Of a stretch of 38,700 nucleotides of DNA, positions 7,485 through 15,305 are shown piece after piece. The first letter of the stretch is position 1. Every line of letters begins with the position of its first letter. The notes below the pieces were generated by a model that searched no databases, had not been told where the DNA came from, and was given only the letters and a program-made list of their open reading frames with translations. Origin of the DNA: Candidatus Roizmanbacteria bacterium RIFOXYC1_FULL_41_16 (GTDB lineage: Bacteria; Patescibacteriota; Microgenomatia; UBA1406); NCBI GenBank assembly GCA_001788295.1, contig MGBO01000013.1, positions 1 through 38,700 of the forward strand, read 5' to 3'. Both the position numbers and the translations under genes were made by a program.

Positions 7485-7931
7485 ATGAAATGTCCATTTT
7501 GCGGTTCCACCAAACACGAAGTTGTCGAAACTCGAGTCGCCGAGGAGGGTCGCTCTTTAAGAAGACGCCGTGAATGTCCCAGTTGTCAAAAGCGTTTTAC
7601 AACTTATGAGAGAGTTGATAGATTACCTATTGTCGTTATTAAAAGAAAAGGGACCCGCGAAGTTTACGATCGCAACAAAGCCAAGGGTGGTTTGATTAAG
7701 TCGAGCGAAAACACCACGATTACTAATGAGCAGATCGAGCAAATCCTGGACGATTTGGAAAACGATTTAAGAAAACTGGAATCAACAGAAGTTGAAAGCA
7801 AAAAGATCGGCGATCTTTTAGCTCGTAAACTAAAAAAACTGAGCAAGATTGCCTATATTCGTTTTGCGTCAGTTTTTCGGCGTTTTGTGGATGTCGAGGA
7901 TTTTGAAAAAGAAATCAAAAAGTTACTTTAA
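7485..7931 (+). CDS. nrdR: transcriptional repressor NrdR
   Basis: A 148-residue regulator of ribonucleotide reductase genes. The N-terminal zinc ribbon is intact (MKCPFCGSTKHEVVETR, then RRRRECPSCQKRFTTYERV, giving CxxC...CxxC). The ATP-cone domain follows from about residue 46 (LPIVVIKRKGTREVYDRNK to the helical KIAYIRFASVFRRFVDVEDF). ATP or dATP binding in this domain controls oligomerisation and DNA binding. Length is typical (about 150). It lies 27 bases upstream of nrdJ on the same strand, the classic arrangement, and behind a probable NrdR box. No Shine-Dalgarno site is visible. Confidence 0.97.
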   Translation: MKCPFCGSTKHEVVETRVAEEGRSLRRRRECPSCQKRFTTYERVDRLPIVVIKRKGTREVYDRNKAKGGLIKSSENTTITNEQIEQILDDLENDLRKLESTEVESKKIGDLLARKLKKLSKIAYIRFASVFRRFVDVEDFEKEIKKLL

Positions 7932-7958
7932 AATTAACAGTTTATAAAAAACAAGCCT

Positions 7959-10310
7959 ATGACTTTAGATGGCATTGCTAACAAAGTTTTTTTGGATCGG
8001 TATACTTTAAAAGACAAAAGTGGCAAAGCCATTGAAAGTAAGCCGCAAGAGATGTGGAAAAGAGTGGCCAAGGGAATTGCCAAAATCGAAGAACCGGCCA
8101 AGCGCCAGTATTGGGAAAAGAAATTCTACCAGACGATGGTGGACTTTAAATATGTTCCGGGCGGTCGAATTCTGGCCGGCGCCGGCACTGGCTACCAAAC
8201 CACTTTTTACAACTGTTTTGTAATTCCCTCACCCAAAGATTCCCGTGACGGCATTTTGGAAACTCTGAAACAAATGGTGGAAATCATGGCCCACGGTGGT
8301 GGGGTAGGGATCAATCTTTCCTCATTGCGGCCTCGGGGATTTCGGGTTCACAAAGTCAATGGCTTTTCTTCCGGCCCGGTTAATTGGGCCGAACTTTTCT
8401 CAGTCGCCACCAAGGATATTATTCAGCAGGGTGGTTCCCGCCGGGGAGCGCTCATGCTGATGCTTTGGGATTGGCATCCGGATATTGCCGAGTTTATTAC
8501 TGTGAAACAAAATCTGCAAAAAATCAATGGCGCCAATTTGTCGGTCGCTATTTCCGACAGTTTTATGGAAGCGGTCAAAAAAGACAAAGATTGGGATTTA
8601 CTTTTTCCCGATACAAGCGACAAAAAATACGACACGGTTTGGAATGGTGACATGACTGCTTGGCGTCAGGCTGGTGGTAAGGTCAAGATGGCCAAGACAA
8701 TCAAAGCCCGCGAGCTTTGGGATTTGGTGGCCAATGCCGCCTGGAAGAGCGCCGAACCGGGTGTGGTCTTTATGGAGCGTTATAACAAGTGGCACAACAA
8801 CTGGTATTGGAATCGCATTAATTGCGTCAATCCCTGTGGTGAAGAGGGTTTGCCTCCTTGGGGAGTCTGCAATTTGGGTTCGATCAATTTGTCGGCGCTT
8901 GTTAAGCAATCTCACGGTTTTAAAACGGCCGGCAAGTTCGATTTTAAAAAACTCAAAGACACGGTTAAAATCGCAGTTCGTTTTCAGGACGATGTCGTTC
9001 AGGGTGATACCTATATTTTTGAAGGCATTAAAAAAATTCAGCTCAACGGTGAGCGACGTATTGGTTTGGGCACGATGGGATTGGGTGACACTTTGATTAA
9101 AATGCAATTGCGCTATGGATCGCCCAAGTCGCTCAAATTTGTCGAAAAAGTTTATCGCTTGATTCGCGACGCGGCTTATGAGGCTTCCAGCGAGATTGCC
9201 AAAGAAAAAGGCACTTTTCCCAAGTTTGATCAAAAACAATATTTAAAAGGTAAGTTCATTCAGGCTCTGCCTGAAAAAGTGAAAGCCAAAATCAGCAAAC
9301 AAGGGATTCGGAATTCATTATTATTAATGCAAGCCCCAACTGGCTCAACTTCATTAATGGCCGGTACGACCTCGGGAATTGAACCAGTTTATGAATTTGA
9401 ATTTACCAGACGTGATCGATTGGGTGAGCATATTATCCGACATCCGCTTTATGATCAATGGCTCAAAGAAAACGGAGTCGTAAACGGGCAAGCTAAAACT
9501 GTCAAACGGCCGGATTATTTTGTCACTGCCAACGATCTTTCGCCTGAGGATCATGTCAAAGTACAGGCTGTGATTCAAAAATATGTCGACGCCTCAATTT
9601 CCAAAACAGTCAACGCCCCTAATACCCATACTGTTGAAGAAGTCAAAAAAGTCTATAACCTGGCTTATGATTTGGGTCTAAAAGGGATTGCTTATATGAG
9701 AGACGGAAGCCGGCCTGGAGTTTTGTCTCGCAAAGAGGAGAAAAAACCTGAGCCTGTCGCACCGGTTAATTACGAAATGATGCCGCGGCCGGTGATGATT
9801 AAAGGCGCTACTTATCAGATCGACACACCAGTAGGCCGCGCTTTTATTACCATTAACACCAATGAAAAGGGTGATCCGTTTGAGGTCTTTATCAATATTG
9901 GTAAAGCCGGTACCGATGTTTTTGCCATGGCCGAGGGTTTGGGCAGAGTGGTCTCTCTTATTTTAAGAATGAATTCACCCCTACCGGGTAAGAAAAAACT
10001 GGAGCTGGTTATTGAACAGCTGGCTGGAATCGGTGGCGCCAAGACCTTGGGTTTTGGCGACAATAAAATTCGGTCTCTGCCCGATGCCGTCGCCAAGGTT
10101 TTGGTTCGCCATTTTGCTTTGAATCTGGCCAATGGTAATGGTCATGTTAAAAAAGTAGCTGAAATCAAGCAGGAATCATTGCCCATGGTTGCCAGTGTTC
10201 AAAAACAAGATTCCAATTTTGATATTTGCCCTGATTGCGGCGTCGCCTCATTTGCTTATGAGGAGGGTTGCAAAAAGTGCTATAGCTGTGGTTACTCCGA
10301 ATGCGGCTAG
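7959..10310 (+). CDS. nrdJ: adenosylcobalamin-dependent class II ribonucleoside-diphosphate reductase
   Basis: A 783-residue enzyme that makes deoxyribonucleotides with a radical from adenosylcobalamin. Catalytic features: the redox Cys in FYNCFVIPS, the substrate loop GGGVGINLSSLRPRG, the radical site NPCGE (Asn291, Cys293, Glu295) followed by GVCNLGSINLS with the partner Cys, RIGLGTMGLGD, and QAPTGSTSLMAGTTSGIEPV. A TSCPD-type C-terminal domain follows (TPVGRAFITINTNEKGDPFE to AGIGGAKTLGFGDNKI). The end is a Cys-rich ribbon (CPDCG...CKKCYSCGYSECG) that can bind zinc or shuttle disulfides. No ATP cone is seen at the N-terminus. It is co-oriented with nrdR; a cobalamin adenosyltransferase is encoded at 4069-4554. 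Confidence 0.96.
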   Translation: MTLDGIANKVFLDRYTLKDKSGKAIESKPQEMWKRVAKGIAKIEEPAKRQYWEKKFYQTMVDFKYVPGGRILAGAGTGYQTTFYNCFVIPSPKDSRDGILETLKQMVEIMAHGGGVGINLSSLRPRGFRVHKVNGFSSGPVNWAELFSVATKDIIQQGGSRRGALMLMLWDWHPDIAEFITVKQNLQKINGANLSVAISDSFMEAVKKDKDWDLLFPDTSDKKYDTVWNGDMTAWRQAGGKVKMAKTIKARELWDLVANAAWKSAEPGVVFMERYNKWHNNWYWNRINCVNPCGEEGLPPWGVCNLGSINLSALVKQSHGFKTAGKFDFKKLKDTVKIAVRFQDDVVQGDTYIFEGIKKIQLNGERRIGLGTMGLGDTLIKMQLRYGSPKSLKFVEKVYRLIRDAAYEASSEIAKEKGTFPKFDQKQYLKGKFIQALPEKVKAKISKQGIRNSLLLMQAPTGSTSLMAGTTSGIEPVYEFEFTRRDRLGEHIIRHPLYDQWLKENGVVNGQAKTVKRPDYFVTANDLSPEDHVKVQAVIQKYVDASISKTVNAPNTHTVEEVKKVYNLAYDLGLKGIAYMRDGSRPGVLSRKEEKKPEPVAPVNYEMMPRPVMIKGATYQIDTPVGRAFITINTNEKGDPFEVFINIGKAGTDVFAMAEGLGRVVSLILRMNSPLPGKKKLELVIEQLAGIGGAKTLGFGDNKIRSLPDAVAKVLVRHFALNLANGNGHVKKVAEIKQESLPMVASVQKQDSNFDICPDCGVASFAYEEGCKKCYSCGYSECG

Positions 10311-10319
10311 AATAATTCC

Positions 10320-10364
10320 TTGACAGGCAACCGAACCCCTGTTATATTATGAATATATATTCAT
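10320..10364 (+). promoter_or_regulatory. strong promoter with a perfect 16-bp palindromic operator
   Basis: TTGACA (10320-10325) and TATATT (10343-10348) are separated by exactly 17 bases, close to the sigma-70 optimum. ATGAATATATATTCAT (10349-10364) is a perfect palindrome directly after the -10 and covers the expected transcription start, a standard position for a repressor operator. The UPF0251 DNA-binding protein encoded at 10522 is the obvious candidate ligand. A purine-rich GAAGGGAG (10371-10378) lies before the first gene. Confidence 0.7.
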
Positions 10365-10390
10365 TATATAGAAGGGAGATGAAAAAAATA

Positions 10391-10501
10391 ATGCCAAGAT
10401 TTGATGGAACCGGACCACAAGGAAAAGGTCCAAAAACCGGACGAGGTATGGGCAAATGTCAAGACAAAAAACCGCCCCAGCCCACAGACAAGAAACGTTA
10501 A
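10391..10501 (+). CDS. DUF5320-type small Gly/Pro-rich protein (36 aa)
   Basis: A short ORF beginning MPRFDGTGPQGKGPKTGRGM and ending GKCQDKKPPQPTDKKR. The start matches the family pattern MPRGDGTGPxGxGPxTGRGxGxC, including the single Cys after the GRG repeat. Family members are small proteins of unknown function that often sit beside UPF0251 regulators and iron-sulfur or cofactor genes, as here. An in-frame ATG at 10379 would add four residues, but the family begins at MPR and the purine-rich GAAGGGAG (10371-10378) would overlap too closely with it. It is the first gene of the operon and is followed 20 bases later by the UPF0251 gene. Confidence 0.75.
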   Translation: MPRFDGTGPQGKGPKTGRGMGKCQDKKPPQPTDKKR

Positions 10502-10521
10502 AAATAGATACAATAGCAATT

Positions 10522-10797
10522 ATGTCCAGACCCAAAAAGCCGCGCCAGCTGTTTTTTCAACCAGGAGTGCGCTATTTTAAACCTCAGGGAGTGCCGTTGC
10601 GACAATTAAGTGAAGTAGTTTTGATGCCGGACGAACTGGAAGCTTTAAAACTGCACGAGCAGGATCGTTTGTCTCAAATAGAAGCGGCAACTAAGATGCA
10701 AATTTCCCAGCCCACTTTTGCCCGGATTTTGGGCAGTGCTTACCAAAAGATTAGTTTGGCTATTCTTAATGGTCAGGCAATTAAGTTACAGCAGTAA
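10522..10797 (+). CDS. UPF0251 (DUF134) family DNA-binding protein
   Basis: A 91-residue protein starting MSRPKKPRQLFFQPGVRYFK, with GVPLRQLSEVVLMPDELEAL, then a sigma-70 region-4-like helix-turn-helix (HEQDRLSQIEAATKMQISQP followed by TFARILGSAYQKI) and a tail ILNGQAIKL. This matches the UPF0251 layout (RPKK...YFKPxGVPL...DELEALRL...EEAAxxMxVSRxTFxRIL...VNGKAL). ATG 10522 is chosen to match the family start; the open frame extends further upstream. It probably binds the palindrome at 10349-10364 and so regulates its own operon. It overlaps the following redox gene by one base (TAATG), implying translational coupling. Confidence 0.88.
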   Translation: MSRPKKPRQLFFQPGVRYFKPQGVPLRQLSEVVLMPDELEALKLHEQDRLSQIEAATKMQISQPTFARILGSAYQKISLAILNGQAIKLQQ

Positions 10798-11942
10798 TGA
10801 AAAAAATAATTGTTTTTTTTAGCTTGATTTTGTTCTGGCTGGTTTTTAGGCCAGCCCCGGTTTTAGCTCAAGCTCCGGTTGAATTAAAACTATTTTATTC
10901 TGAATTTTGTCCGCATTGCCAAAAAGAAGAACTTTTTCTGTCAAAACTGGTCGACAAATACCCAAACCTCAAAATTACCAAATATCAGATTGATACTGAT
11001 AAAAATAATCAGAAACTGTTTGCGATTACAGCTGCGAGATTTGGCATCACTCAGCTGGGCGTGCCCCTGACAGTAATAAGCGATCAGGTTATTCAAGGTT
11101 ATGGCGACGATAGTACTACTGGCGTGGCAATTGAACAGGCAATTAAAAATCAGCTTTCCAAGGCCACGTCGGAAAAAGAAAAGCCTGAGCTACCAAGTCA
11201 GATTAGTGTGCCTATTTTGGGAACTTTAACAATCAGTCAATTGTCTTTGCCGATTTTTACTATTATTATTGCCGCACTTGACGGCTTTAATCCCTGTGCC
11301 ATGTGGACCTTATTGTTTTTGATCAGTTTATTACTGGGAATGAAAGATCGTCGGCGAATGTGGATTTTAGGAACGGCTTTTATTGTTACTTCGGCCTTTG
11401 TTTATTTTCTGTTTTTATCAGCCTGGCTTAATTTTTTCTTGTTTGTCGGCTACTCAACCTGGGTTAGATATTTAATTGGATTGGTTGCACTTGGGGCTGG
11501 TGGCTATTATCTATATGACTATGTGAAAAATAAAGACGGTGGTTGTCGGGTAACCGGTAATGAAAAACGGCAACAGGTATTTAACAGAATTAAAGAAATT
11601 GCTTATCGCCAACAATTTTGGTTGGCATTGTTTGGCATGATTCTGTTGGCTTTTGCCGTCAATATGGTCGAATTGGTTTGCTCTGCCGGCTTACCGGCGG
11701 TTTACACTCAAGTGCTTAGTTATGCTAAGCTGCCGAGTTGGCAACATTATCTGTATCTAGTTTTCTATATTCTGGTGTTTATGCTGGATGATTTATTTGT
11801 CTTTTTTACAGCCATGTTGACTTTAAAAGCCGTTGGCTTGGAAAGTAAATATTCCCGCTATTCACATTTAATCGGCGGGATTTTGATTTTGTTGATTGGA
11901 ATTCTGATGTTGTTTAAACCCGAGTGGCTGATGTTTGGATAG
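10797..11942 (+). CDS. secreted thioredoxin-like domain fused to a CcdA/DsbD-like membrane domain
   Basis: A 381-residue membrane protein. A signal peptide covers residues 1-24 (ending PAPVLA), followed by an extracytoplasmic thioredoxin-like domain with the active site CPHC at 38-41 (YSEFCPHCQKEE) and a cis-Pro region (QLGVPLTVI). A linker leads to about six transmembrane helices. The first carries NPCAMW and a later one ELVCSAGLPAVY, the paired membrane cysteines typical of CcdA/DsbD electron carriers. The protein would pass electrons from cytoplasmic thioredoxin to the outside domain and reduce or isomerise secreted disulfides. It is coupled to the UPF0251 gene. Likely clients include Cys-rich secreted proteins such as the pilin at 16588. 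Confidence 0.85.
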   Translation: MKKIIVFFSLILFWLVFRPAPVLAQAPVELKLFYSEFCPHCQKEELFLSKLVDKYPNLKITKYQIDTDKNNQKLFAITAARFGITQLGVPLTVISDQVIQGYGDDSTTGVAIEQAIKNQLSKATSEKEKPELPSQISVPILGTLTISQLSLPIFTIIIAALDGFNPCAMWTLLFLISLLLGMKDRRRMWILGTAFIVTSAFVYFLFLSAWLNFFLFVGYSTWVRYLIGLVALGAGGYYLYDYVKNKDGGCRVTGNEKRQQVFNRIKEIAYRQQFWLALFGMILLAFAVNMVELVCSAGLPAVYTQVLSYAKLPSWQHYLYLVFYILVFMLDDLFVFFTAMLTLKAVGLESKYSRYSHLIGGILILLIGILMLFKPEWLMFG

Positions 11943-11957
11943 CTGAAAAAAATATTT

Positions 11958-12044
11958 TGGTCCAGAGGGATGGATTCGAACCATCGAAGGGGAAACCCCG
12001 CGGGTTTTACAGACCCGTGCATTTGGCCACTCTGCCACCTCTGG
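11958..12044 (-). tRNA. tRNA-Tyr (anticodon GUA)
   Basis: Minus-strand class II tRNA. Acceptor CCAGAGG (12044-12038) pairs with CCTCTGG (11968-11962), the discriminator is A (11961), and CCA is encoded (11960-11958). The anticodon stem CGGGT/ACCCG encloses CTGTAAA, giving GTA. It has a long variable arm (CGGGGTTTCCCC region) and a T arm GATGG-TTCGAAT-CCATC. The first acceptor pair is C1-G72, unlike the usual bacterial G1-C72 of tRNA-Tyr. Confidence 0.95.
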
Positions 12045-12134: not shown

Positions 12135-12206
12135 GGTGCGGTGGCGAAGTGGAAACGCGGATGTCTGCAAAACATCTATGCAGGGGTTCAATTCCCCTCC
12201 GCACCT
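12135..12206 (+). tRNA. tRNA-Cys (anticodon GCA)
   Basis: Acceptor GGTGCGG (12135-12141) pairs with CCGCACC (12199-12205) and the discriminator is T (12206), as required for cysteine identity. The anticodon stem GATGT/ACATC encloses CTGCAAA, giving GCA. The T arm is AGGGG-TTCAATT-CCCCT. CCA is not encoded. A TAAAAT -10 lies at 12116-12121. Confidence 0.95.
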
Positions 12207-12219
12207 CAATTAACAAAGT

Positions 12220-12310
12220 GGAGAGGTGGCAGAGTGGCCGATCGCGCACGCCTTGAGAGCGTGTTCCCGCCTTTGGCGGGACGTGGGTTCGAATCCCACC
12301 CTCTCCGCCA
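12220..12310 (+). tRNA. tRNA-Ser (anticodon UGA)
   Basis: Class II tRNA 13 bases after tRNA-Cys. Acceptor GGAGAGG (12220-12226) pairs with CCTCTCC (12300-12306), the discriminator is G (12307), and CCA is encoded (12308-12310). The anticodon stem CACGC/GCGTG encloses CTTGAGA, giving TGA. The long variable arm is CCCGCC-TTT-GGCGGG. The adjacent recombinase frame runs through this tRNA in antisense, so its 3' end is the likely integration site of the island. Confidence 0.96.
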
Positions 12311-13587
12311 GTTGGGAAACTGGGGGGAATTGGCAAGGGTTCGCCAGCCGATTTTCCCTTCAAATAAGAATTTTTTATCTTTCAAAATGAAGTTCGAGCC
12401 GATATTTTTTAGAAATGCTCGGATTTTTTGATTGTCGTTTTGCAACAAAAGAATTTTGGCTTGGCAACTGTTTAAAATCATTTCTTTCATCGGTTCGAGC
12501 CGATTATTTCCCATTTGTTCAAAATCATTTATTCGCTGTTGAATATCCAGCTTCTCATTGAGAAGTTTTTGTTTTTTAGTTTGATATTCTTCTGGTTCAA
12601 TGCCTTTGCCTTCAATAAAAAGATCTAGCAGTTTTTCAGTTGTTATTTCAATTTCAGTTTTTCGGCTTTGGAGATTTTGAACAATAACTTTTGTTTCTTC
12701 TCGGGCTTGTTCTTTTTCTTTGTCTATTTCAGTAAGCATATTTTTTGCCCAATCGTCAGGCAAAGAAACTTTTTGAATAATTTCTTTCATCTGTTCAACA
12801 AGTTTTTCTTCCCGCAAATATTTTTCATCGCATTTTTGCTTTTTCTTGGTGCAACGATAATAATGATGTCCTTTTTGCTTTTCAGCAGTTATGAGGCAAC
12901 CGCAAAAACCGCATTTCATCAAACCTGAAAAAGCAAATTCATGCTTTCTCTTTCTTTGTTTTTTTCCTCTATTGCTCATGACTTGTTGAACGGAATCAAA
13001 AAGTTTCTTGGAAATAATCGGCTCGTGTGTTCCGTCGTAAACTTCGCCATTGAAAGAAAATACGCCGTAATAAATCGAGTTTTGAAGCATGCGCTGGACA
13101 CTGGAAACGGAAAGAACATTGCCTTTATAGCTTTTTAGCCCCGCTTGCCCTAAAACCTTTACAATGGCCTTTAGCGTGTATTCGCCAGTTCCGTAAAGCT
13201 CAAATGCTTTTCTGATAAATGGCGCTCTTTCTAGGTCAATGTCAATCCCTTTAGTTTTGTGATTATTCAAATAGCCAAGCGGGGCAAAAGTCGGCCAAAT
13301 TCCTTTTCGCAGTTTCGCCCGATGTCCTCGCTTGATATTCTCGCTTAGATTATCGATATAATACTTGCTTTGGCCAAAGGCAATGTTCAGCATGAATTTT
13401 CCTTGCGGTGTAGAGTCAAACCAAAAAGTGGGAAATTTCAAATCTTTAATCTGTCCAGTGTCCAGCAAGTAAATGATTTTACCTCCGTCAATGGAATTTC
13501 TAGCCAGTCTATCCGGATGCCAAGCCAAAATTCCGCCGGCTTCGCCTTTGCAAATCCGATCGAGCATTTCTCCGAACACAGTTCGGC

Positions 13588-13607
13588 CAGGTTCTTTGGC
13601 AGTTTTT
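13588..13607 (+). repeat. 20-base direct repeat, copy 1
   Basis: CAGGTTCTTTGGCAGTTTTT is identical to 15449-15468 in the same orientation. This copy codes for the AKTAKEPG part of the serine recombinase catalytic domain. The two copies bracket the three cargo genes. Confidence 0.85.
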
Positions 13608-13665
13608 GCCTCGCTAAACGAGGCGACGATTCCAAGTTTTTCTTTGGCGGCAAATTCTTTTTTAA

Positions 13666-14361
13666 TTATACAAATTCTAAAACTTTTTTTATAATTTTCT
13701 CTCCGTCTTCAACGGATTTCTTACACAACCAAAGGACATTAATATCGCTACCTTCAAACAAAAATGATACCCAATTCTCAATTTTCGTTTCAATGACATT
13801 ATTGGAAACTGGCATTTGTGTTGCTGGATCGATAGGAACACCCATAATACTAACACCGCCACCAAAAGTCACGCCCGAACCCCAAGATACCGCGCCACCG
13901 CCACGAGAAACGGTTACCCTTTTTGTTTCCGTTTTTGTTTGAGGTGTTAGTCTAATATGTTTTTCTGAGGCATAGTTTGTCAAATACTTTAACCACAAAT
14001 AATTTTGATTGTATGGCTGAACGGAATCAATAAATTTATAAAAATCTTGATGATTTGTTTCAAGATCGCTCATTTTTGCTCTACCAAAAACTGACCTTAA
14101 ATCGTCATTTTTAGAAACTGTAGGGAAATAGACTTTTGCAGATTTTTTATCTTTCTCAGAAAGATTTGGCAAATAATGTTTTTCAAAAAATTTATAAATG
14201 GATTGGTCTAGCAAATGCCTAACTTTAAGTAAAACTTCTTGCGATAGATTTTTTGTTTTGCCAGAAACATTTTTTGTTTGCAAATCATTATCACAAGCTT
14301 TTTTTAGCTCTTGCAATAATTCCTTTGCTCTATCTAATTGTGATTGAATGTCTTTATCCAT
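13666..14361 (-). CDS. uncharacterised cargo protein with coiled coil and Gly-rich segment (231 aa)
   Basis: I do not recognise this protein. The N-terminal third is highly charged and helical (MDKDIQSQLDRAKELLQELK), followed by a His/Phe/Tyr-rich middle (DQSIYKFFEKHYLPNLSEKD) and a Gly/Ser-rich strip (TVSRGGGAVSWGSGVTFGGG). The C-terminal block is ENWVSFLFEGSDINVLWLCK. No signal peptide or membrane helix is evident. It is last in a three-gene set with an XRE regulator and a GIY-YIG nuclease, one base after the nuclease gene. Its stop lies exactly where the headless recombinase homology begins, so its 3' end marks a recombination junction. A role as a cargo or defence-type effector is possible but unproven. 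Confidence 0.75.
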   Translation of the reverse strand: MDKDIQSQLDRAKELLQELKKACDNDLQTKNVSGKTKNLSQEVLLKVRHLLDQSIYKFFEKHYLPNLSEKDKKSAKVYFPTVSKNDDLRSVFGRAKMSDLETNHQDFYKFIDSVQPYNQNYLWLKYLTNYASEKHIRLTPQTKTETKRVTVSRGGGAVSWGSGVTFGGGVSIMGVPIDPATQMPVSNNVIETKIENWVSFLFEGSDINVLWLCKKSVEDGEKIIKKVLEFV

Positions 14362-14362
14362 G

Positions 14363-15094
14363 TTAAATTATGCGTCTCCAACATTTAAATGCTTTTATAT
14401 CAGTAGAGTTTAAATCAAACCATTCCCCATTCTTCCTCTTTGTTTCAAAACGTTTATGCCAATATGCCTCTATTCCACTTGGGTCATCAGTTTTAATTTC
14501 GTGTATCAAATCTAAATTCTCAGGCAACTGAATTTTAAGTTCATTTCCTCTCCGCACAGTATCATTAGTTTTTCCAATTTTATAATATTTACCATGCTTG
14601 AAAAGATATACTGCACCCAAAACTTCTTTGCTTCTATCATCAGAATCCTCCTTCTTGCCAGTTTTTTCAGAAACAGCGTCACATAACTTGATTATATCTT
14701 CGTAACCATTTTTGCTTTGACAATACTCAATTACTTTCTTTGCGAATCGCTTTTTAGAACCAAAGGCGCGTATAAAGACTGAAAAAATGGGAAGCTCGGG
14801 ATTGTTGTTTCTTTCCACGGTAAGTTCTTGATAGGTTGGAAACTTACCTAGTCTGCGAATTACTATAATTATTTTTTCAATTAAAAAATCATCAGTGTAA
14901 ACAAAACCGAATTGGTTTGGCGTAAATCCAGCTTCTAGTAGAACATCACCAAACCTAGACCAATATTTCAGCCAATCATACTTTTTTATTCCGGTCTCCT
15001 TTTCAAATCCGCCTATACCTAAGGGCTTACCCCCATTTTCTTTTGCGGTTCGGCGGATGGCCTCAAGAATATCTTGTTTAGTTATATTGCTCAT
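14363..15094 (-). CDS. GIY-YIG (T5orf172/MUG113-like) nuclease with HNH-associated repeats
   Basis: A 243-residue protein. The N-terminal half carries repeats of the type found with homing endonucleases (LEAIRRTAKENGGKPLGIGG, KKYDWLKYWSRFGDVLLEAG, FTPNQFG, then IIVIRRLGKFPTYQEL), each a small DNA-binding helical unit. The C-terminal half is a GIY-YIG domain: GAVYLFKHGKYYKIGKTND with both Tyr-containing strands, VRRGNEL with the catalytic Arg, and GIEAYWHKRFETKRKNGEWF with the Glu and His. This layout suggests a sequence-recognising nuclease like a homing or mobility enzyme. It sits four bases after an XRE regulator and one base before an unknown gene, inside the degraded island. Confidence 0.82.
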   Translation of the reverse strand: MSNITKQDILEAIRRTAKENGGKPLGIGGFEKETGIKKYDWLKYWSRFGDVLLEAGFTPNQFGFVYTDDFLIEKIIIVIRRLGKFPTYQELTVERNNNPELPIFSVFIRAFGSKKRFAKKVIEYCQSKNGYEDIIKLCDAVSEKTGKKEDSDDRSKEVLGAVYLFKHGKYYKIGKTNDTVRRGNELKIQLPENLDLIHEIKTDDPSGIEAYWHKRFETKRKNGEWFDLNSTDIKAFKCWRRII

Positions 15095-15098
15095 AATT

Positions 15099-15305
15099 TT
15101 ATTTTATTAAATCTTCAATTGAAACGCCTAATGTTTTAGCTAATTTTTCCATAATAAATACAGACGGCTTTTTAATCACGTTACTTTCAATTTTTGTTAA
15201 AGTAGTATATTTAACATCAGATATTTTGGCAAAATCCTCTTGTGATAAACCTAGTTTTGCGCGATACCGCTTTATGTTTTCTCCGATATTAATTTCTATT
15301 GCCAT
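15099..15305 (-). CDS. XRE-family helix-turn-helix regulator of the island cargo
   Basis: A 68-residue Cro/C1-type HTH protein: NIGENIKRYRAKLGLSQEDF, AKISDVKYTTLTKIES, then a short helix MEKLAKTLGVSIEDLIK. Such single-domain regulators often repress their own operon. It is first of three co-directional minus-strand genes. Its ATG (15305) is preceded by a promoter containing perfect 12-base inverted repeats (15320-15363), which are good candidates for its own operator. It is a different lineage from the HTH gene at 472. Confidence 0.9.
   Translation of the reverse strand: MAIEINIGENIKRYRAKLGLSQEDFAKISDVKYTTLTKIESNVIKKPSVFIMEKLAKTLGVSIEDLIK

Follow-up and report, generated by a model that had tools for sequence, protein, structure and literature searches.

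The window, i.e. the whole 38,700-nucleotide stretch of DNA that was analysed, is one contig of a 0.9-Mb genome and carries on its + strand an operon headed by a sigma-70-type promoter (10320-10348). The promoter consists of a TTGACA box (10320-10325), a 17-bp spacer and a TATATT box (10343-10348), is near-consensus (11/12 matches) and has a TG-extended -10. Directly 3' of the -10 box lies the perfect 16-bp palindrome ATGAATATATATTCAT (10349-10364, assigned to neither strand), the putative operator of UPF0251, within which the predicted +1 falls; a near-consensus promoter with a perfect palindrome over the start site, as described by the first-pass annotation, is thus confirmed. Three + strand genes follow: a DUF5320 miniprotein of 36 aa beginning with MPRFDGTGPQGKGPKTGRGMGKC (10391-10501), a UPF0251/DUF134 helix-turn-helix (HTH) protein of 91 aa (10522-10797) and a membrane thiol-disulfide carrier (10797-11942) with a signal segment, a thioredoxin-like domain and a CcdA-like membrane domain (thioredoxin-CcdA), the start of which overlaps the UPF0251 stop by one base (TAATG). 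Profile matches and coordinates uphold this order, from palindrome to carrier gene, as it had been read before.

Directly upstream of the operon (7485-10310) lie NrdR and then an adenosylcobalamin-type (NrdJ) ribonucleotide reductase with a TSCPD domain; no terminator-like site is listed on the + strand between nrdJ and the promoter. Downstream of thioredoxin-CcdA a tRNA gene (11958-12044) occupies the strand opposite to the operon. The adjoining segment (12206-15305), with a serine-recombinase gene, a T5orf172/MUG113 protein and an HTH_3 protein that abut tRNA-Ser (12220-12310), resembles a small integrative element that may be decayed; the Resolvase N-terminal domain of the recombinase is matched only from position 52, and its frame extends antisense into this tRNA-Ser.

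The DUF5320 miniprotein matches PF17253 (E 2.7e-9; 38.5 bits, gathering score 27) over only positions 1-30 of 99 and is a short form, with a single Cys codon at 10457-10459. A Cys within residues 15-30 is shared by 55/61 of the DUF5320 homologues near UPF0251, and most of those without it have cysteines further on. The homologues at loci L052, L076, L100, L102 and L111 have Zn-ribbon or metallothionein-like, Cys-rich C-terminal tails.

The UPF0251 protein matches PF02001 (E 4.1e-18) with 66.2 bits (gathering score 27) over profile positions 5-89 of 98. It scores below the cut-off of the NCBIfam equivalog PRK04217 (NF003257; 46.1 bits vs 115) and is a member of the same superfamily, not of that equivalog. 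Alignments and the structural model agree on an HTH with the conserved FKP region and an S-Q/R-x-T recognition helix, which in the window begins S62-QPTFAR68; in the AlphaFold2 model (mean pLDDT 83.7) the HTH consists of helices 52-58 and 63-83. Among the PDB folds the model is nearest to the operator-bound DeoR HTH and to sigma region 4, and the structure search yielded no solved UPF0251 structure, only distant HTH matches. The window copy has no Cys and one His. Its role as a direct thiol switch was rejected, because without a Cys it cannot itself be one; 42/154 UPF0251 domains have no Cys.

In thioredoxin-CcdA the CPHC codons of the thioredoxin-like domain lie at 10908-10919 and the Cys codons of the CcdA-like domain at 11295-11297 and 11679-11681. 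Across the 17 sequences aligned, CPHC and V-P (cis-Pro) are invariant in the former domain, as are C167 (NPC) and C295 (CSAG) in the latter, where the second stretch reads CSAG or CTxG. The window protein reaches 21.8 bits with Pfam Thioredoxin, slightly below the cut-off of 23.5; a fold search with its structure model, which is of moderate confidence (pLDDT 71.6), retrieved thioredoxin folds and confirmed the thioredoxin part only. Pfam DsbD_TM matches 3/17 family members, the window protein not among them, and NCBIfam DsbD matches 5/17. A DsbD in the strict sense is unsupported, with both the domain order and the Pfam results against it. From the "thioredoxin-DsbD fusion" annotated at first, the CPHC thioredoxin and the membrane carrier are retained, but the protein is better described as an N-terminal thioredoxin plus a CcdA-like membrane domain.

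ATGAATATATATTCAT is the sole perfect 16-bp palindrome of the window, has no second match with up to two mismatches in the 0.9-Mb genome, and its symmetry extends to 20 + 20 bp if mismatches are allowed. The chance expectation at the base composition of the window is 0.93 perfect 16-bp palindromes per window, so that the palindrome is not significant on its own and the weight falls on its position and conservation; the chance of finding one in a given 90-bp stretch is ~0.3%. The same expectation of about one per window would suit a chance AT-rich feature, a reading that is contradicted by the conservation of the motif, its position and its co-variation with the recognition helix (below), and that we consider scarcely credible.

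DUF134 was found in 66/380 Patescibacteria genomes and, within the window's own order, in 7/57 genomes searched (the window's genome counted). A survey of the 600 bp upstream of 74 oriented patescibacterial UPF0251 loci detected the motif WTGRRTANNTAYYCAW, at 15/16 positions or better, in 53/74 loci. Exact WTGRRTANNTAYYCAW occurs there at 0.97/kb vs 0.009/kb elsewhere in the same loci, a ~100-fold enrichment that is descriptive because the pattern was refined on these very loci. In 17/74 loci the 600 bp searched hold no motif at 14/16 or better; some operons are longer. Searched over whole genomes, the narrower pattern ATGRRTATATAYYCAT is present in 22/380, of which 19 have DUF134 (exact matches in 19/66 genomes with DUF134 vs 3/314 without it); no related genes lie near the site in the three genomes without DUF134. 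In many relatives DUF5320 lies 40-60 nt 3' of the motif, and the -35/-10 arrangement relative to the palindrome is met with again among relatives. The absence of the operon linkage from related genomes had been named beforehand as grounds for refutation; relatives share both the motif and the linkage of the genes. A regulon of several operons was mostly rejected for the genomes searched, where the distant matches examined fall in or near unrelated genes with no shared theme. A search of IMG/VR returned two distant relatives only.

Protein and site are tied by the correspondence of the recognition helix with the half-site. At loci with a callable site, UPF0251 proteins with Gln go with TGRRTA half-sites (n = 58) and those with Arg go with TGRRCA (n = 22), without exception; 43 Arg-type and 25 Gln-type loci have no callable site and stand outside this count. 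The residues concerned are placed by the AlphaFold2 model at the start of the recognition helix 63-83. The helix SQPTFAR, that of the window protein, is always accompanied by TGAATA half-sites (17/17), and by its sequence the putative window operator is of the TGAATA-N2-TATTCA class. Helices of the SQS..Q type (S-Q-S-x-x-Q-R) have a TGGG-type half-site on at least one side in 26/30 cases. Proteins with an S-R helix are found in Deltaproteobacteria, Chloroflexi, Verrucomicrobia, Lentisphaerae, Clostridia and a few Patescibacteria, at loci with TGRRCA sites such as ATGAGCATATGCTCAT, which typically precede the start of the domain by 30-50 bp. When the helix is masked for tree building, helix residue and half-site class each change four times; few branches of this tree are supported, so that common descent is only incompletely corrected for in the co-variation count. 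Four loci fetched later as a held-out set (n = 4) all have the half-site class predicted from the helix; a second draw from the phylum returned a nearly identical set of genomes.

Two further observations touch on this correspondence. At L107 a UPF0251 protein with the helix SRSQFQR is found with the mixed site ATGGGTATATGCCCAT, in which one half is TGGGTA and the other TGGGCA, possibly an intermediate of the recognition code. L057 and L192 encode UPF0251 proteins with the helix SQATFFR and have the perfect palindrome ATGAATTATAATTCAT 34 bp upstream, which may be a further operator class.

The position of the motif relative to the promoter is confined to a few registers. In 24 loci the palindrome contains the -10 hexamer (offset +7), and in 17 loci the hexamer comes just before the palindrome (offset -4); both registers have a TTGACA-like box at the appropriate distance. 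The window has an offset of -6, and at Arg-type loci the palindrome often occupies the spacer and covers the -10 (offset +13). As judged from this geometry, the candidate operator overlaps the core promoter of the regulator's own operon, and since it does so in few fixed registers, autorepression is the best reading. The proposal that the operon regulates itself is strongly supported by a palindrome that tracks UPF0251 phylum-wide, by a half-site that follows the helix and by a site on the core promoter. Repression is the likely mode of action. Co-variation, from which binding is deduced, leaves the sign of regulation undefined, and UPF0251 could on this ground activate from the palindrome instead of repressing; in most loci, however, the site overlaps the -10 box or the +1 and the spacer is a normal 16-18 bp. 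Activators usually bind further upstream or, MerR-like, need a long spacer. Activation is accordingly a reading to which we assign little probability.

We propose, with good though not full confidence, that UPF0251 is an HTH autorepressor that acts on the promoter palindrome of an operon including thioredoxin-CcdA and that is released by stress. The parts of this model that can be read from the sequence itself are motif conservation, protein-DNA co-variation, promoter geometry and operon structure.

The link of thioredoxin-CcdA to UPF0251 is real but partial. It stands beside DUF134 in 20/74 loci, 20/21 of its ORFs being on the same strand, and sits between the motif and DUF134 in three of the loci. 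The full-length fusion is present in 36/66 DUF134 genomes vs 38/314 others (OR 8.7). The linkage recurs in several DPANN archaea; an Aenigmatarchaeota locus has the order motif-DUF5320-UPF0251-Trx-Trx/CcdA-rubrerythrin-desulfoferrodoxin. The last two genes, together with the Trx and Trx-CcdA genes that they follow, constitute an oxygen-defence set (L155, 3945-4905). Should thioredoxin-CcdA be a chance neighbour and the operon devoid of a common redox function, its absence from 54/74 loci and the many fusion copies elsewhere, in genomes without DUF134, would be accounted for. What this does not accommodate is the close linkage, within a few kb of DUF134, in ~15 genomes, against a chance expectation of well under one, nor the association by presence, nor the equal linkage in DPANN archaea, nor genome G315, in which a fusion gene on the opposite strand has its own exact motif, a candidate operator, ~10 bp from its start. 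We hold chance neighbourhood to be unlikely.

The nature of the signal is less well defined by the neighbours. Besides the loci with thioredoxin-CcdA, the comparison of UPF0251 neighbours suggested in the first-pass annotation brought up metal-transport, Fe-S and rubrerythrin/desulfoferrodoxin genes, and the carrier linkage on which that suggestion was built holds for a part of the loci only. Other loci have rhodanese, nitroreductase, flavodoxin, ZIP, CDF, an ABC-3 metal transporter, ArsR, YibE/F, CsoR with an HMA-DsbD-cupredoxin protein, NifX, MinD/4Fe-4S genes and Feo/Fur-like ORFs. What these neighbours share is chemistry of thiols, Fe-S, oxidants and metals rather than a single signal. The redox-sensing role at first suggested for the operon gained no support for UPF0251 itself, which is Cys-free here, and thioredoxin-CcdA stands at only about a quarter of the UPF0251 loci; given the different neighbours of most loci, the signal could be metal or Fe-S instead of redox. 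Redox sensing is possible and competes with metal sensing.

The UPF0251 autorepressor might thus sense a metal ion or the Fe-S/iron status, with thioredoxin-CcdA serving metal-damaged thiols as in Scs copper-tolerance systems, an explanation that we find plausible and rate somewhat below an even chance. It is favoured by the ZIP, CDF, ABC-3, CsoR/HMA-DsbD-cupredoxin, Feo/Fur-like, ArsR and NifX neighbours, by MinD ATPases with 4Fe-4S sites, and by those DUF5320 homologues that end in Zn-ribbons or Cys-rich tails, but no one metal is common to all loci, the window operon has no metal gene, and UPF0251 offers here a single His and no Cys. In the portions of the literature available, Scs proteins are tied to copper and thiol chemistry (PMC8900818, PMC5524982), Cu(I) is bound by ScsC (PMC8900818), and Mrp/NifX-type proteins are tied to Fe-S biogenesis in anaerobes (PMC6345978).

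For the operon of the window, we infer that UPF0251 binds as a dimer and represses, and that thiol, oxidative or metal stress induces the operon. UPF0251, probably as a dimer, would bind the palindrome at the head of its own operon and block RNA polymerase, the site covering the predicted transcription start, until an inducing signal releases it. A single mRNA would then yield DUF5320, more UPF0251 and thioredoxin-CcdA, and the latter would carry electrons from the cytoplasmic thiol pool via the membrane to external thiols in oxidised or metal-bound form. DUF5320, with its conserved Cys, is perhaps a sensor or co-factor, and as judged from sequence a sensor or partner role next to UPF0251 is possible.

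The portions of the open-access literature on DUF134/UPF0251/DUF5320 retrieved by whole-word matching give neither a function nor an operator for UPF0251. In its widest form, which we put forward as speculation and consider rather doubtful, the proposal is that UPF0251 is an unrecognised autorepressor family of bacteria and archaea, in which Gln/Arg and Pro..Ala/Ser..Gln set TGAATA, TGGGTA or TGARCA on thiol, Fe-S and metal operons, with DUF5320 as a Cys-bearing sensor or co-repressor. If the code is true, each UPF0251 type should prefer its own class among ATGAATATATATTCAT, ATGGGTATATACCCAT and ATGAGCATATGCTCAT. Since UPF0251 is widespread in bacteria and archaea, a predicted operator, a residue-to-base code and target genes make the family testable at the bench. 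For uncultured groups, e.g. Patescibacteria and DPANN, the genome sequence alone may suffice to call regulons, and the operon suggests a way in which very small genomes keep an extracytoplasmic thiol-redox carrier under control.

Thioredoxin-CcdA resembles the CcdA, DsbD and ScsB carriers, which also have a CcdA-like membrane domain with an invariant Cys pair and a CxxC thioredoxin domain; unlike in these, the thioredoxin domain of the window protein is N-terminal and fused directly, and no nDsbD-type domain is seen. Thiol sensors of the OxyR/OhrR type have the reactive Cys in the regulator, which the UPF0251 of the window does not. The closest solved HTH, both by sequence (E 4.5e-5) and by fold, is the DNA-binding domain of Bacillus DeoR (PDB 7bhy, 8r7y), but UPF0251 is devoid of the DeoR effector domain. 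The fold is also like that of sigma-70 region 4; UPF0251, however, is not a sigma factor, being a protein of 91 aa with an N-terminal FKP region of its own. Small metal/thiol autorepressors of the CsoR, ArsR and CopY type act on their own stress operons from a promoter palindrome, as the short UPF0251 protein would; UPF0251 is another protein family, with no known ligand or sensor residues. Within UPF0251/DUF134 (PF02001, COG1342), a family often found beside DUF5320, the window copy is a member with an HTH, and the operator class and its tie to the recognition helix are what we propose here for this family from sequence comparison.
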